Origin: Gammaproteobacteria bacterium
GTDB taxonomy: Bacteria; Pseudomonadota; Gammaproteobacteria; Chromatiales; Chromatiaceae
Direction of reading: 5' to 3'
Length of the DNA: 64,000 bases
Assembly (NCBI GenBank): GCA_009929855.1
Contig: RZZN01000015.1
Location: 1-64,000 of the forward strand
Shown here: positions 34,928 to 44,839 of the stretch, piece after piece
How the letters are laid out: the number at the start of each line of letters is the position of its first letter
How positions within the stretch are numbered: the first letter of the stretch is position 1
Notes under the pieces: generated by a model
What the model saw: only the letters and a program-made list of their open reading frames with translations
What the model was told of the DNA's origin: nothing
The model's database searches: none
Program-made: the position numbers and the translations under genes

Positions 34928-36772
34928 ATGACACCGCGACTCTCCCCCACGCCCGTCCCCGCCACGCCCTTCGATCTGTCGGCTGTACGGGCCCAGTTTC
35001 CGATCCTGAAGACCCGCGTGCATGGTCAGCCGCTCGCCTATCTGGACAATGCGGCCAGCACCCAGCAGCCATTGAAGGTCATCCAGGCGGTCAGCGACTA
35101 CCATCAGCAATATCACGCCAACATCCATCGCGGCGTCTATCAGCTCTCACGCAACGCCACGCGCATGCATGACTATGCCCGTGAGGTGGTCGCCCATTTC
35201 ATCCACGCCGCCGAGCCGGCCGAGTGTCTCTTCACCCGCGGGACCACGGAATCCATCAATCTGGTCGCGGCCTGTTGGGGCAGGGCCAATCTGCGTCCAG
35301 GCGACGAGATCATCCTCTCGGTGCTCGAGCATCACTCCAACATCGTGCCCTGGCAGATGATCTGCGAGGCCACAGGCGCTCGGATCCGCGTCATCCCAAG
35401 CAATGAGCGGGGCGAGCTGCGGTTGGATGAGTATCGCCGTCTACTTTCATCGCGCACCCGACTGGTCGCGGTCAATCAGGTTTCCAATGCACTTGGGACC
35501 ATCAACCCGGTGGCCGAGATCATCGCCGAGGCGCATGCCGCGGGTGCCGTGACGCTGATCGATGGCGCCCAATGGGTGGCTCACGGCGTGACCGACGTGC
35601 AAGCGCTCGATGCCGATTTCTATGCCTTCTCGGGTCACAAGCTCTATGGGCCGACTGGGATCGGGGTGCTCTACGGCAAACGCCATCTGCTCGAGGCCAT
35701 GCCCCCCTACCAGGGCGGGGGTGACATGATCGAGCAGGTGACCTTCGAGAAGACCACCTATGCCGCCTTGCCGAACAAGTTCGAGGCCGGGACGCCACAC
35801 ATCGCCGGCGCGATCGGTCTGGCGGCCGCGATCGAGTGGCTTGAGACGGTCGGCTTGGAGCGGATCGGCGCGCACGAGCAGCAGCTGCTGCGCCAGGCCA
35901 CCGCGCGCCTGTCGGCGATCGAGGGGATCGCGATCAAGAGCAGCGCGGCACACAAGGGCGCGCTCGTCTCCTGGATTCCGGTCGATCTGCCGATCGGCAC
36001 GCTGGACATCGGGATGCAGCTCGACCTGCGCGGCATCTGCATCCGCACCGGTCATCATTGCTGCCAACCACTGATGGATCGAATGGGGGTTGCCTCGACC
36101 GCGCGCGCCTCCTTCGCCATCTACAATGATCCGGCCGAGATCGATCGACTGGGTGATGCACTGACCGAGATCATCGCCGCGGCGCGCCCCCGCGCGGCCG
36201 GCGCGAGCGCCCCCAAGTCGGCGCCGGCGAGCACCGCGGCGCTAGTGTCCGAGTCGATCGGCTACGCGGTGGCGGCGGCGGACTCCCCCGAGGCCGCGGC
36301 CGAGGCGATCGCCGAGGTCTTCGATCTGTTGCCTGATTGGCCGATGCGACATCAGCAGATCATCGATCTCGGCGAGCGTCTGCCCGTGCTGCCCGAGTCA
36401 CTCAAGACCCCCGAGCGTCTCGTCCCGGGGTGTCAAAGCCGTGTCTATCTGGTGGCGCGGCTCCGCCCGGATTCCGACGGGGTGATCGAGCTGGCCGCCG
36501 ACAGTGATTCGAATCTGGTGCGCGGGCTCATCGCGATCCTGCAGCAACTCTATTCAGGTCAGACGGCTACGGCCATCCTCGCGTTCGACATCGCCACCTT
36601 CTTCAAACGGATCGGGCTCGATGAGCAGCTCAGCATGGCGCGGCGCAATGGCCTGGCGTCGATGGTCGAGCGGATTCGTCGAATCGCGGCGCATGCACTG
36701 CAGCAGGATCGTCACCAGCGCGAGGACAGGATGCCCACAGGCGCGCGCCCACAGCAGCAAGTGTCAAATTAA
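34928..36772 (+). CDS. SufS-SufE fusion: cysteine desulfurase with sulfur acceptor
   Basis: A 614-residue fusion. Residues 1-415 are a SufS-type PLP cysteine desulfurase: PLP Lys in FYAFSGHKLYGPTG, and catalytic Cys in IRTGHHCCQPLMDRMG, here a double Cys. An Ala/Pro-rich linker (about 418-445) joins a complete SufE-like domain (about 455-595) with acceptor Cys in VPGCQSRVYL. SufS takes sulfur from cysteine and passes it to SufE for Fe-S cluster assembly; fusion would place donor and acceptor together. No other suf gene lies in the window. It follows glgA by 6 bp, and its stop codon lies inside the PpsR-like operator of the antenna genes. Confidence 0.92.
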   Translation: MTPRLSPTPVPATPFDLSAVRAQFPILKTRVHGQPLAYLDNAASTQQPLKVIQAVSDYHQQYHANIHRGVYQLSRNATRMHDYAREVVAHFIHAAEPAECLFTRGTTESINLVAACWGRANLRPGDEIILSVLEHHSNIVPWQMICEATGARIRVIPSNERGELRLDEYRRLLSSRTRLVAVNQVSNALGTINPVAEIIAEAHAAGAVTLIDGAQWVAHGVTDVQALDADFYAFSGHKLYGPTGIGVLYGKRHLLEAMPPYQGGGDMIEQVTFEKTTYAALPNKFEAGTPHIAGAIGLAAAIEWLETVGLERIGAHEQQLLRQATARLSAIEGIAIKSSAAHKGALVSWIPVDLPIGTLDIGMQLDLRGICIRTGHHCCQPLMDRMGVASTARASFAIYNDPAEIDRLGDALTEIIAAARPRAAGASAPKSAPASTAALVSESIGYAVAAADSPEAAAEAIAEVFDLLPDWPMRHQQIIDLGERLPVLPESLKTPERLVPGCQSRVYLVARLRPDSDGVIELAADSDSNLVRGLIAILQQLYSGQTATAILAFDIATFFKRIGLDEQLSMARRNGLASMVERIRRIAAHALQQDRHQREDRMPTGARPQQQVSN

Positions 36773-36779
36773 GTTGACA
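36762..36779 (+). promoter_or_regulatory. PpsR/CrtJ-type operator, site 1
   Basis: TGTCAAATTAAGTTGACA is a near-perfect palindrome with the TGT-N12-ACA spacing bound by PpsR/CrtJ, the oxygen/light repressor of photosynthesis genes in purple bacteria. It overlaps the -35 box (TTGACA, 36774-36779) and the stop codon of the upstream gene. Repressor occupancy here would block RNA polymerase. Confidence 0.75.
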
Positions 36780-36801
36780 TTACTAAGCGTCAAGCTAATA
36801 T
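36774..36801 (+). promoter_or_regulatory. Sigma-70 promoter of the antenna operon
   Basis: A consensus -35 TTGACA (36774-36779), a 16-bp spacer and -10 TAATAT (36796-36801) lie about 140 bp before the beta-subunit gene. This is the strongest vegetative-type promoter I see in the window, fitting the high expression needed for antenna proteins. Both boxes lie inside PpsR-like palindromes. Confidence 0.75.
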
Positions 36802-36805
36802 GACA
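36788..36805 (+). promoter_or_regulatory. PpsR/CrtJ-type operator, site 2
   Basis: CGTCAAGCTAATATGACA repeats the site-1 pattern with one changed base in the left half (CGT for TGT) and covers the -10 box. The centre-to-centre distance from site 1 is 26 bp. Paired sites are usual for cooperative PpsR/CrtJ binding. Confidence 0.6.
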
Positions 36806-36944: not shown

Positions 36945-37163
36945 ATGGCTGAACAGCGAACTCCCGGCGCATCAACCGGCGGTAAGGCGCGCGCGCAGAC
37001 GAAGACCGCCGCCGCCACCACCACACAATCGGCAAGCCTGTCCGGGCTCACCGAGCAGCAGGCGAGAGAGTTTCACGAGCAATTCAAGGTGACCTACACC
37101 GCGTTCGTTGGGATCGCGGCGCTTGTCCACCTGTTCGTGATTGCGAGCAACCCCTGGTTCTAA
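36945..37163 (+). CDS. pucB: Light-harvesting antenna beta subunit (LH2-type)
   Basis: A 72-residue intracytoplasmic-membrane protein. The beta signature is SLSGLTEQQAREFHEQFK, then one transmembrane helix with the bacteriochlorophyll-binding His in ALVHLF and the terminal SNPWF. It has an N-terminal extension of about 28 residues rich in Thr, Ala and Lys before the conserved part. ATG 36945 is chosen because GGAGG lies 8 bases upstream; an in-frame ATG 15 bases earlier overlaps that site. The alpha gene follows after 18 bp. LH2 rather than LH1 is favoured by the sequence of the alpha partner and absence of pufLM. Confidence 0.88.
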   Translation: MAEQRTPGASTGGKARAQTKTAAATTTQSASLSGLTEQQAREFHEQFKVTYTAFVGIAALVHLFVIASNPWF

Positions 37164-37181
37164 CCGAGGAGGTCAACTTCC

Positions 37182-37838
37182 GTGGATTCCATCAAACAGG
37201 CCCTGAGCAACGTTTTCGGTTACAGTCCGCGCGATCATGACTATCGAATCTGGCTGGTCGTCAACCCCGCTGTCTGGTTGATTCCAATCCTCATCGCCGT
37301 GCTCGTCATCGCCTTGGCTGTCCATCTCTACGCCTTCTCGCTTCCGGATCGCGCGTGGGATTCTGGCAAGGCACCGGTCGTCGAAGAGGCCGCGCCGGTC
37401 GTTGAAGAGGCTGCCCCGGTCGTTGAGGAGGCCGCTCCGGCTGCCGAAGAAGCCGCGCCGGTCGTTGAAGAGGCTGCTCCGGCCGTAGAGGCCGCGCCGG
37501 TCGTCGAAGAGGCCGCGCCGGTCGTTGAAGAGGCTGCTCCGGCCGTAGAGGCCGCGCCGGCTGCCGAAGAAGCCGCACCGGCCGTCGAGGCCGCGCCGGC
37601 TGCCGAAGAAGCCGCACCGGCCGTCGAGGCCGCGCCGGCCGCCGAAGAAGCCGCCCCGGCCGTCGAGGCCGCGCCAGCCGCCGAAGAAGCCGCCCCGGCC
37701 GTCGAGGCCGCGCCAGCCGTTGAAGGGGCTGCTCCGGTCGAAGAGGCCGCGCCAGCTGTCGAGGAAGCCGCTCCGGCTCAAGACGTCACGCCCAACGAGG
37801 AGCCAGTACCGGTCGTCCCGACCCCAGAGACCGCTTGA
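37182..37838 (+). CDS. pucA: Light-harvesting antenna alpha subunit (LH2-type) with a giant C-terminal repeat tail
   Basis: A 218-residue protein, whereas alpha subunits usually have about 50-70. The antenna part is residues 1-60: DYRIWLVVNPAVWLIPILIA, then VIALAVHLYAF with the bacteriochlorophyll ligand His48. The segment DYRIWLVVNP resembles LH2 alpha (DYKIWLVINP) rather than LH1 (KIWLLIDP). Residues 64-218 are almost only Ala, Pro, Val and Glu in repeats of the type VVEEAAP and AVEAAPAAEEAAP. The tail would project from the periplasmic/luminal face and be strongly acidic. The start is GTG 37182 with AGGAGG 9 bases upstream. Whether the tail stays on the mature protein is unknown. Confidence 0.88.
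   Translation: MDSIKQALSNVFGYSPRDHDYRIWLVVNPAVWLIPILIAVLVIALAVHLYAFSLPDRAWDSGKAPVVEEAAPVVEEAAPVVEEAAPAAEEAAPVVEEAAPAVEAAPVVEEAAPVVEEAAPAVEAAPAAEEAAPAVEAAPAAEEAAPAVEAAPAAEEAAPAVEAAPAAEEAAPAVEAAPAVEGAAPVEEAAPAVEEAAPAQDVTPNEEPVPVVPTPETA
37371..37781 (+). repeat. Coding minisatellite in the alpha-antenna tail
   Basis: Tandem units of 18-21 bp (VEEAAP/VVEEAAP) and 39 bp (AVEAAPAAEEAAP) fill this part of pucA. The 39-bp unit recurs almost identically about four times between roughly 37540 and 37700. Such a tract is prone to copy-number change by slippage and could also be misassembled from short reads. Confidence 0.85.
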
Positions 37839-38312
37839 TTCGGATCTGATCGTTGTTCGAGACTCATCGGGGCAGTGCGCCCTTGATGAAAGCGAAGCGA
37901 TATCCTGATCTCGCTTCGCATGTATGCCGCACGCAGTCGTCTTCAAGATAGGCCTTGGTTGGGTGAGAAACCAGTCAGTCTGAATCTCGATCCCGCATTC
38001 ACGCTTTGGTGGATGGCCTGATCCGCGATCCCGATCCCAGTTTGCCGGATCGCCCCGTGCTCAACGGTCTAACGCCGTTGAGCACGGGAGAGGAGCCACG
38101 CTTGATTCAAGCTCAAAGCCTCAAAAGCCTCAAAAGCCTCATCAGCCTCCGAAAGCGCTGAGCCTTGCATGGTTTCCGCCCGAAGCCGCGCCGGGGCCTT
38201 CAGGCCCTAGGGAAACGCTGAAATATTCGGATCCCGCTGGATCGGGATGTGCAATATCAGCTACTTGCGATGGGCTACCGTCCCGATTCTGAAATTAATC
38301 AGCGCCTCCCCA
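37839..38312 (+). other. Non-coding region downstream of pucA with hairpins
   Basis: I see no gene here. GCGAAGCGA-N10-TCGCTTCGC (37892-37919) is a 9-bp perfect stem soon after the pucA stop and may end or stabilise the antenna message, although no T-tract follows. A second, stronger stem is listed separately. CTCAAAAGCC-like short direct repeats occur near 38110-38145. A fragment resembling the dispersed repeat (GGGGCCTTCAGGCCC) lies near 38192-38206. Confidence 0.5.
38054..38088. terminator. Perfect 14-bp stem-loop
   Basis: CCCGTGCTCAACGG-N7-CCGTTGAGCACGGG is a perfect inverted repeat in the gap between pucA and the wecA-like gene. It is long enough for a strong RNA hairpin, but with no following T-run it may be a rho-dependent end, an mRNA stabiliser, or a protein-binding palindrome. 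Confidence 0.5.
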
Positions 38313-38812
38313 GAGGAGTCGGGGCCTCCAGGCCCCGAGTGAGGACCGACCCGGACCATCAAGCCCGCTCGAAGCCCGGCCCGCATGAGCGCGCCTTGCC
38401 TCGGGACCGTCATCGCAACTGTCCTTTCTCGGGGCGAGGACGCCCCGACTCCCCTGGGCGTCGGTGCCTCGAGGCCCCAGAGGAGTCGGGGCCTCCAGGC
38501 CCCGAGTGAGGACCGACCCGGACCATCAAGCCCGCTCGAAGCCCGGCCCGCATGAGCGCGCCCTGACTCGGGATCGGCATCGCAATTGTCCTTCCTCGGG
38601 GCGAGGACGCCCCGACTCCCCTGGGCGTCGGTGCCTCGAGGTCCCAGAGGAGTCGGGGCCTCCAGGCCCCGAGTGAGGACCGACCCGGACCATCAAGCCC
38701 GCTCGAAGCCCGGCCCGCATGAGCGCGCCCTGCCTCGGGATCGTCATCGCAATTGTCCTTCCTCGGGGCGAGGACGCCCCGACTCCCCTGGGCGTCGGGG
38801 CCTCTGGATTGG
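38313..38812. repeat. Three tandem copies of a 167-bp hairpin-rich repeat
   Basis: Units begin at 38313, 38480 and 38647, exactly 167 bp apart, and are nearly identical. Each contains CGGGGCCT-CC-AGGCCCCG near its start and TCGGGGCG-AGGA-CGCCCCGA near its end. The same element is found in part at 25-142 of this window, 38 kb away. Short open frames of 70-93 codons cross the units in several frames but encode only the repeat, so I do not call them genes. REP/BIME-like behaviour is inferred from the paired palindromes. Confidence 0.88.

Positions 38813-41731: not shown

Positions 41732-44839
<3,108 letters not shown>

Follow-up and report, generated by a model that had tools for sequence, protein, structure and literature searches.

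A long acidic Ala-Pro-Val-Glu repeat tail on a putative LH2 alpha antenna subunit, with counterparts at the same locus in related Chromatiaceae

The window analysed here, a 64-kb stretch of DNA on contig C267 of a 4.81-Mb draft genome (414 contigs) from a genus group that includes Thiocapsa, encodes on its + strand an LH2-type alpha antenna subunit (37182..37838; ORF of 218 aa with a GTG start) in which the antenna module is followed by a 159-residue acidic repeat tail. Versions of the tail persist at the corresponding position in related genera, and it is therefore probably genuine and functional within the antenna. As for its role, the sequence tentatively suggests, with somewhat less than an even chance, that LH2 rings of mixed composition carry disordered polyanionic chains, or a brush of them, on their lumenal face, which would space the complexes and crowd the lumen.

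The antenna module comprises residues 1-59 (37182..37358, + strand) and contains His48, the presumed bacteriochlorophyll ligand, and Trp59 at His+11. Residues 20-53 match the Pfam family LHC, PF00556 (E=1.2e-8, 35.4 bits against a curated cut-off of 23), and His48 lies within a single helix (residues 29-53) predicted with high confidence by AlphaFold2; both findings place the protein among the light-harvesting alpha subunits and agree with the first-pass annotation, in which the antenna part was described as normal. The beta and alpha genes are each preceded by a Shine-Dalgarno-like sequence, which for the alpha gene is GAGGAGGT (37166..37173, + strand), as read from the sequence. Folding of the region 3' of the alpha gene gave no signal of a terminator hairpin (z-score -0.58), and an antisense ORF (37173-37946, - strand) appears to be a by-product of the repeat codons.

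The puf genes of the same genome are on contig C90, adjoining a reaction-centre gene (Photo_RC), and the long-tail alpha gene is outside the puf operon. Among 13 solved chains matching the alpha subunit, eight are named B800-850 or B800-820, the best being 8z4v (E=9e-12), and three others (6ZXA, 7ZDI, 7ZE8) are LH2 according to excerpts of PMC9618040, giving 11 of 13, while the names of the remaining two (6q53, 9j2f) do not settle the type. Because the puf genes are on C90 and the nearest solved chains are LH2, the long-tail alpha is assigned to LH2 rather than LH1, as had already been proposed. The NCBIfam models label both subunits as LH1, since the alpha scores 51.3 bits with NF040861 (pufA_517_ASD; equivalog cut-off 35) and the beta 62.4 bits with the LH1 beta model (cut-off 61). 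This label is not followed here. The genome has two more non-puf alpha genes, both on contig C400, one with a 20-residue Ala-Pro-Val-Glu (APVE) tail and one with no tail; NF040861 also accepts these two (48.3 and 50.2 bits), with a much higher score for the puf-operon alpha (77.2 bits), and so does not separate LH1 from LH2.

The tail (residues 60-218; 37359..37835, + strand), whose start was set after His48+11, consists of 20 units starting with AAP, 17 of which read AAP[AV][AV]E or AAP[AV][AV]EE, and ends in VVPTPETA. It contains 61 Ala, 36 Glu, 26 Pro and 25 Val, so that 148 of 159 residues (93%) are A, P, V or E; it has no aromatic and only one positive residue, a net charge of -37, and a mass of about 15.1 kDa out of 21.8 kDa for the whole alpha. 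A length of 155 residues had been given before, which is the same within the choice of boundary, and the description of an acidic, proline-rich tail two to three times the size of the antenna part holds (2.7 times). In the AlphaFold2 model, built on an alignment of five sequences (overall mean pLDDT 56), residues 60-218 have no secondary structure and block-mean pLDDT values of about 40-65, and the tail is therefore predicted to be disordered.

Tandem Repeats Finder detects an array at 37374-37777 with periods of 21, 39 and 60. Comparison of codons at lag 13 gives 23, 39 and 61 mismatches out of 146 at positions 1, 2 and 3, respectively (Fisher p ~1e-5 for position 3 versus 1+2, the sites being non-independent); this pattern, together with like tails at the same locus in other genomes, indicates that the tail is not due to chance. 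The 17 regular units give pS 0.50, pN 0.07 and pN/pS 0.14, a ratio biased low by the selection of these units on their amino-acid pattern, a bias from which the lag comparison is free; the window tail thus varies more at silent positions than in amino acids. Of the 12 genomes whose long tails are complete, 11 show mismatches at the best lag increasing from position 1 to 2 to 3; G070 departs from this order (13, 9 and 21 of 48) but still has its highest value at position 3, and G073 and G118 show a weak repeat with a small excess at position 3. An assembly artefact had been named as a possible source of the tail; this is unlikely, because G109 and G112 have orthologous long tails free of N on contigs of 5.65 and 5.89 Mb, and the caveat stays with the copy number of the repeats, which is provisional in a draft of 414 contigs.

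A search of the family finds matches in 74 of 210 genomes at E<=0.01. In all, 12 genomes, belonging to the Thiocapsa-like genus and a group containing Marichromatium, have a long-tail alpha at a glgA-linked locus. In particular, it is present in nine of 11 genomes of the Thiocapsa-like genus, the other two (G116 and G117) having none among the matches listed, and in three of the 74 genomes with family matches, G070, G071 and G073 of genus group g35, the last a metagenome-assembled genome. In all 12 loci glgA is on the same side, with alpha downstream of it and, in the nine Thiocapsa-like genomes, with sufS between the two genes; among the matches listed, more than 300 kb separate glgA and alpha in G009, G103, G105, G182 and G183. 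No antenna gene was found near glgA in G117 or in G072, a single-contig 3.78-Mb genome of the Marichromatium genus group, in searches of 13-kb pieces that in G072 cover about 5 kb around glgA; for G116 the absence is a weak one, as its glgA contig ends inside sufS. Another genus contributes G041, which has a 76-residue tail with alpha and glgA on different contigs.

Eleven of the 12 glgA-linked tails are complete and measure 159, 147, 129, 118, 115, 109, 86, 74, 63, 57 and 54 residues; the tail of G114 (171 residues by script) has a run of N and was left out of the tail counts, its antenna domain being kept in the tree. The survey of alpha tail lengths proposed by the first-pass annotation thus places long tails at the same locus in 11 genomes with complete tails, and the claim of exceptional length stands in part: the window tail is the longest complete one among the rows examined, but it is not isolated, since ten other genomes have tails of 54-147 residues. 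With G041 added, the 12 complete long tails are 82-99% A/P/V/E with 16-30 acidic residues per 100, have no aromatic residue and no Cys, and past residue five a single Arg (in G118) is the only K, R or H. The repeat unit depends on the lineage, being of 6-7 residues in the window, 5-6 in most Thiocapsa-like genomes, 5 in G118 and 6 in Marichromatium, and all 11 complete glgA-linked tails finish with P-E-[TA]-A, unlike that of G041. A second beta-alpha pair follows in the other eleven loci and is lacking in the window; downstream of the window alpha, where the others have this pair, three tandem copies of a 167-bp repeat are found (38308-38804), which belong to a dispersed family with 203 full and partial matches in the same draft genome.

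These comparisons bear on a rather unlikely alternative, in which an ancestral Ala/Pro/Glu tail would have grown by slippage and been tolerated in the periplasm, with selection acting only on frame and solubility. It would account for the fact that no two of the 12 complete long tails are equally long, over a threefold range, and for the unit that changes with lineage; moreover, a 330-residue protein of the same genome on contig C180 (L088, 1393-2385, - strand), with no Pfam family and no sign of an antenna domain, has similar repeats, and thus the APVE repeat is not antenna-specific. Since slippage from an ancestral short tail would yield the same make-up, composition by itself says little about function. 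It would not explain why the regular units keep their amino acids (pS against pN, biased low as stated), why 12 complete tails hold one basic residue past position five and no aromatic one, or why the PE[TA]A end and the locus persist across two genus groups. A further alternative, that the tail is a prosegment removed once the complex is assembled, leaving an ordinary mature subunit, is highly improbable: the same constraint on amino acids along the repeat and the conservation of the very end would not be expected of a discarded part, although disordered periplasmic chains are in general accessible to proteases.

The distribution of tails was followed in 137 alpha rows from the loci of 45 genomes; the search pattern may overlook some alphas, and duplicates were removed per genome and sequence rather than per gene. 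Of the rows truncated by a locus end, two showing exactly 5 tail residues were excluded from both the tree and the untailed count, while one with a tail of 10 (G116, L073) was retained among the short tails. In a tree of 119 antenna-domain rows, built on 52 columns and with a bootstrap that has not settled, tailed and untailed alphas are split with support 100/100; the tailed class nevertheless includes two rows without a tail (G105, G184), and the untailed class three with a short one (G111, G117). The window alpha falls in the tailed class and has the Ala/Pro extension that marks it. Short tails amount to 57 rows from 38 genomes (median 20 residues, longest 37), which bears out the earlier remark on shorter Ala/Pro tails, and a short-tail alpha often shares one locus with an untailed alpha. 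Members of the tailed class usually have a short Ala/Pro tail, and the long tails are elaborations nested there. A single origin of the long tails finds no support, as the starred branches of the tree require the long-tail label to change at least twice, with G041 apart (again with 52 columns and an unsettled bootstrap), and this also fits growth by slippage. In the same survey a divergent alpha type on a long branch, with tails of 20-28 residues, was observed in G117 and G111 (L067, L076, L084, L085); every listed match of G117 belongs to this type or to a still weaker one.

Outside the family, antenna matches at E<=0.001 occur in nine of 369 genomes of the class and 31 of 398 of the phylum, the genome of the window being included in each. 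In 45 rows found there by the pattern, which covers part of the matching loci, can miss alphas and returns a few rows that are not antenna proteins, the longest region after His+11 has 78 residues and none is an APVE repeat. LH2-like alphas of other phototrophs (L174, L180, L186, L188, L190, L191) resemble the window alpha in having a long C-terminal region past the antenna module, of 56-78 residues; unlike the window tail, these regions are non-repetitive and varied, with Thr, Leu, Asp and basic residues and without the APVE repeat, and they are apparently unrelated to it.

LH2 alphas with a polyproline/polyalanine C-terminal extension are described, in the excerpts of PMC5069747 and PMC9618040, for Rhodopseudomonas palustris (PucAb and PucAc) and Rubrivivax gelatinosus (PucA), and in R. 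palustris PucB-LH2 17 residues are untraced and predicted to be unstructured (PMC9618040, in part). The window alpha shares with these proteins an antenna module followed by a membrane-extrinsic Ala/Pro-rich C-terminal tail. However, their tails are short (17 untraced residues in the former and about 21 in Rvi. gelatinosus PucA), whereas that of the window has 159 residues, tandem repeats and a strongly acidic character. No long acidic repeat tail on an alpha subunit was found in the titles and abstract openings of the open-access literature searched; judged by sequence, the long tail would be a new form of an extension already described in its short Ala/Pro version. A role in assembly is reported for the short extension of Rvi. 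gelatinosus PucA (excerpts of PMC5069747), and it is possible, although unlikely, that the long tail acts in the same way, aiding insertion or ring assembly through PucC or the insertion machinery, with the extra length adding little. Short Ala/Pro tails are in fact usual in the tailed class, often in one locus with an untailed alpha; however, tails of at most 37 residues suffice in 38 genomes, and an assembly aid leaves unexplained both the 54-159 residues at one locus and the higher acidity (mean of 11 acidic residues per 100 in short tails versus 16-30 in long ones).

That the gene is expressed, how the protein lies in the membrane, which rings it joins and in what number, and all physical effects of the tail are matters of inference here. 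In LH2 the C-termini are periplasmic and the N-termini cytoplasmic (excerpts of PMC7880592), and by analogy the tail would lie in the lumen. In the reading as a polyanionic chain or brush, the gene would make a working LH2 alpha whose C-terminus bears a disordered polyanionic chain; this alpha and a beta subunit would be built into LH2 rings, most likely mixed with the tail-poor alphas of the other puc locus, and the tails would form an acidic brush on the lumenal face. Electrostatic and steric repulsion would then keep neighbouring rings and facing membranes apart, and the brush would keep the narrow lumen open and hydrated and concentrate cations, with selection acting on composition and approximate length rather than on the precise sequence. 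A role as an ion or cytochrome reservoir close to the membrane surface, binding cations or a basic electron carrier, is very unlikely, although the -37 charge per chain with one positive residue in the tail would suit it.

The purified heptameric LH2 of Marichromatium purpuratum (6ZXA) contains three alpha and three beta polypeptides, with terminal alpha residues untraced (PMC7880592, in part), and for this reason mixed rings are likely; it is, like the window system, an LH2 of Chromatiaceae, with an alpha chain of 70 residues compared with 218 here. The first-pass picture of a tail repeated around the ring as a dense brush needs change: because the genome has the two other non-puf alphas, with a 20-residue tail or none, rings may be mixed and the brush diluted, and this diluted case is the more probable; one tail per ring would give a chain, not a brush. 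With an assumed ring of 7 nm, nine alphas and 0.38 nm per residue, Alexander scaling puts the layer thickness at 9-20 nm when a ring bears from one to nine tails, as a rough bound. Export of a 159-residue periplasmic tail is needed and may be costly. In favour of the brush stand the long-tail locus in 12 genomes, the acidic make-up shared by tails whose units differ with lineage, the low pN/pS (with its stated bias), the constant tail end, the predicted disorder and the paired operator-like sites. Counted against the brush are the threefold range of lengths, the APVE repeats of the C180 protein, the locus of G111 without its operator pair, the glgA of G117 and G072 without adjoining antenna genes, and G116 without a listed long-tail alpha.

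A large disordered layer in the lumen would go unseen, because the LH2 structures of PMC9618040 and PMC7880592 leave flexible C-terminal residues untraced. The natural series of tail lengths at one conserved locus, from 54 to 159 residues, takes in deposited strains (Thiocapsa imhoffii DSM 21303, Marichromatium bheemlicum DSM 18632 and M. gracile DSM 203) and allows a direct test of ring spacing, membrane spacing and lumen composition against length.

Upstream of the pair, two operator-like palindromes are present: TGTCAAATTAAGTTGACA (36762..36779, no strand assigned), which is of the form TGT-N12-ACA, and, 26 bp downstream, CGTCAAGCTAATATGACA (36788..36805, no strand assigned), of the form CGTCA-N8-TGACA, whose initial CGT is one base off. 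TGT-N12-ACA is presumably the PpsR/CrtJ-type operator consensus, and it occurs three times in the 64-kb window. Paired PpsR-like sites at the 26-bp spacing are found in 11 of the 12 loci, the first having the form TGTCA-N8-TGACA in 10 and one changed base (TGTCC) in G071; among the 12 loci compared, the pair was not found at that of G111. By these putative operators, the puc pair fits a photosynthesis operon regulated by PpsR/CrtJ.

The LH2-type beta subunit (36945..37163, + strand; 72 aa; PF00556, E=1.3e-6) begins with some 26 extra residues of basic character (R5, K14, R16, K20), a feature absent from the first-pass annotation, followed by a normal antenna beta domain, and 40 solved beta chains align to it only from residues 24-35 onward. 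With starts chosen by Shine-Dalgarno-like sequence, a basic extension of about 24-29 residues is found in all nine Thiocapsa-like genomes with the locus (the window and L089-L096), whereas neither the locus's own second beta nor any other Thiocapsa-like beta examined has it; betas of G145, from another genus, appear extended too, and in the three g35 loci no first beta was seen between glgA and alpha. By analogy with known LH2 topology, the extension would be cytoplasmic. A bolder proposal, which is doubtful and quite unlikely, is that the glgA-linked puc pair forms a charge-polarised antenna, with the basic beta extension on the cytoplasmic side and the acidic alpha brush on the lumenal side of the same ring. 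With several tails per ring, a polyanionic gel would then largely fill the lumen and set its width, its ion content and the diffusion of electron carriers, tuned by repeat number. Elsewhere in the window (41732-44839), a GyrA is encoded with an in-frame intein of about 160 residues, with a Pfam intein splicing domain at residues 119-268.
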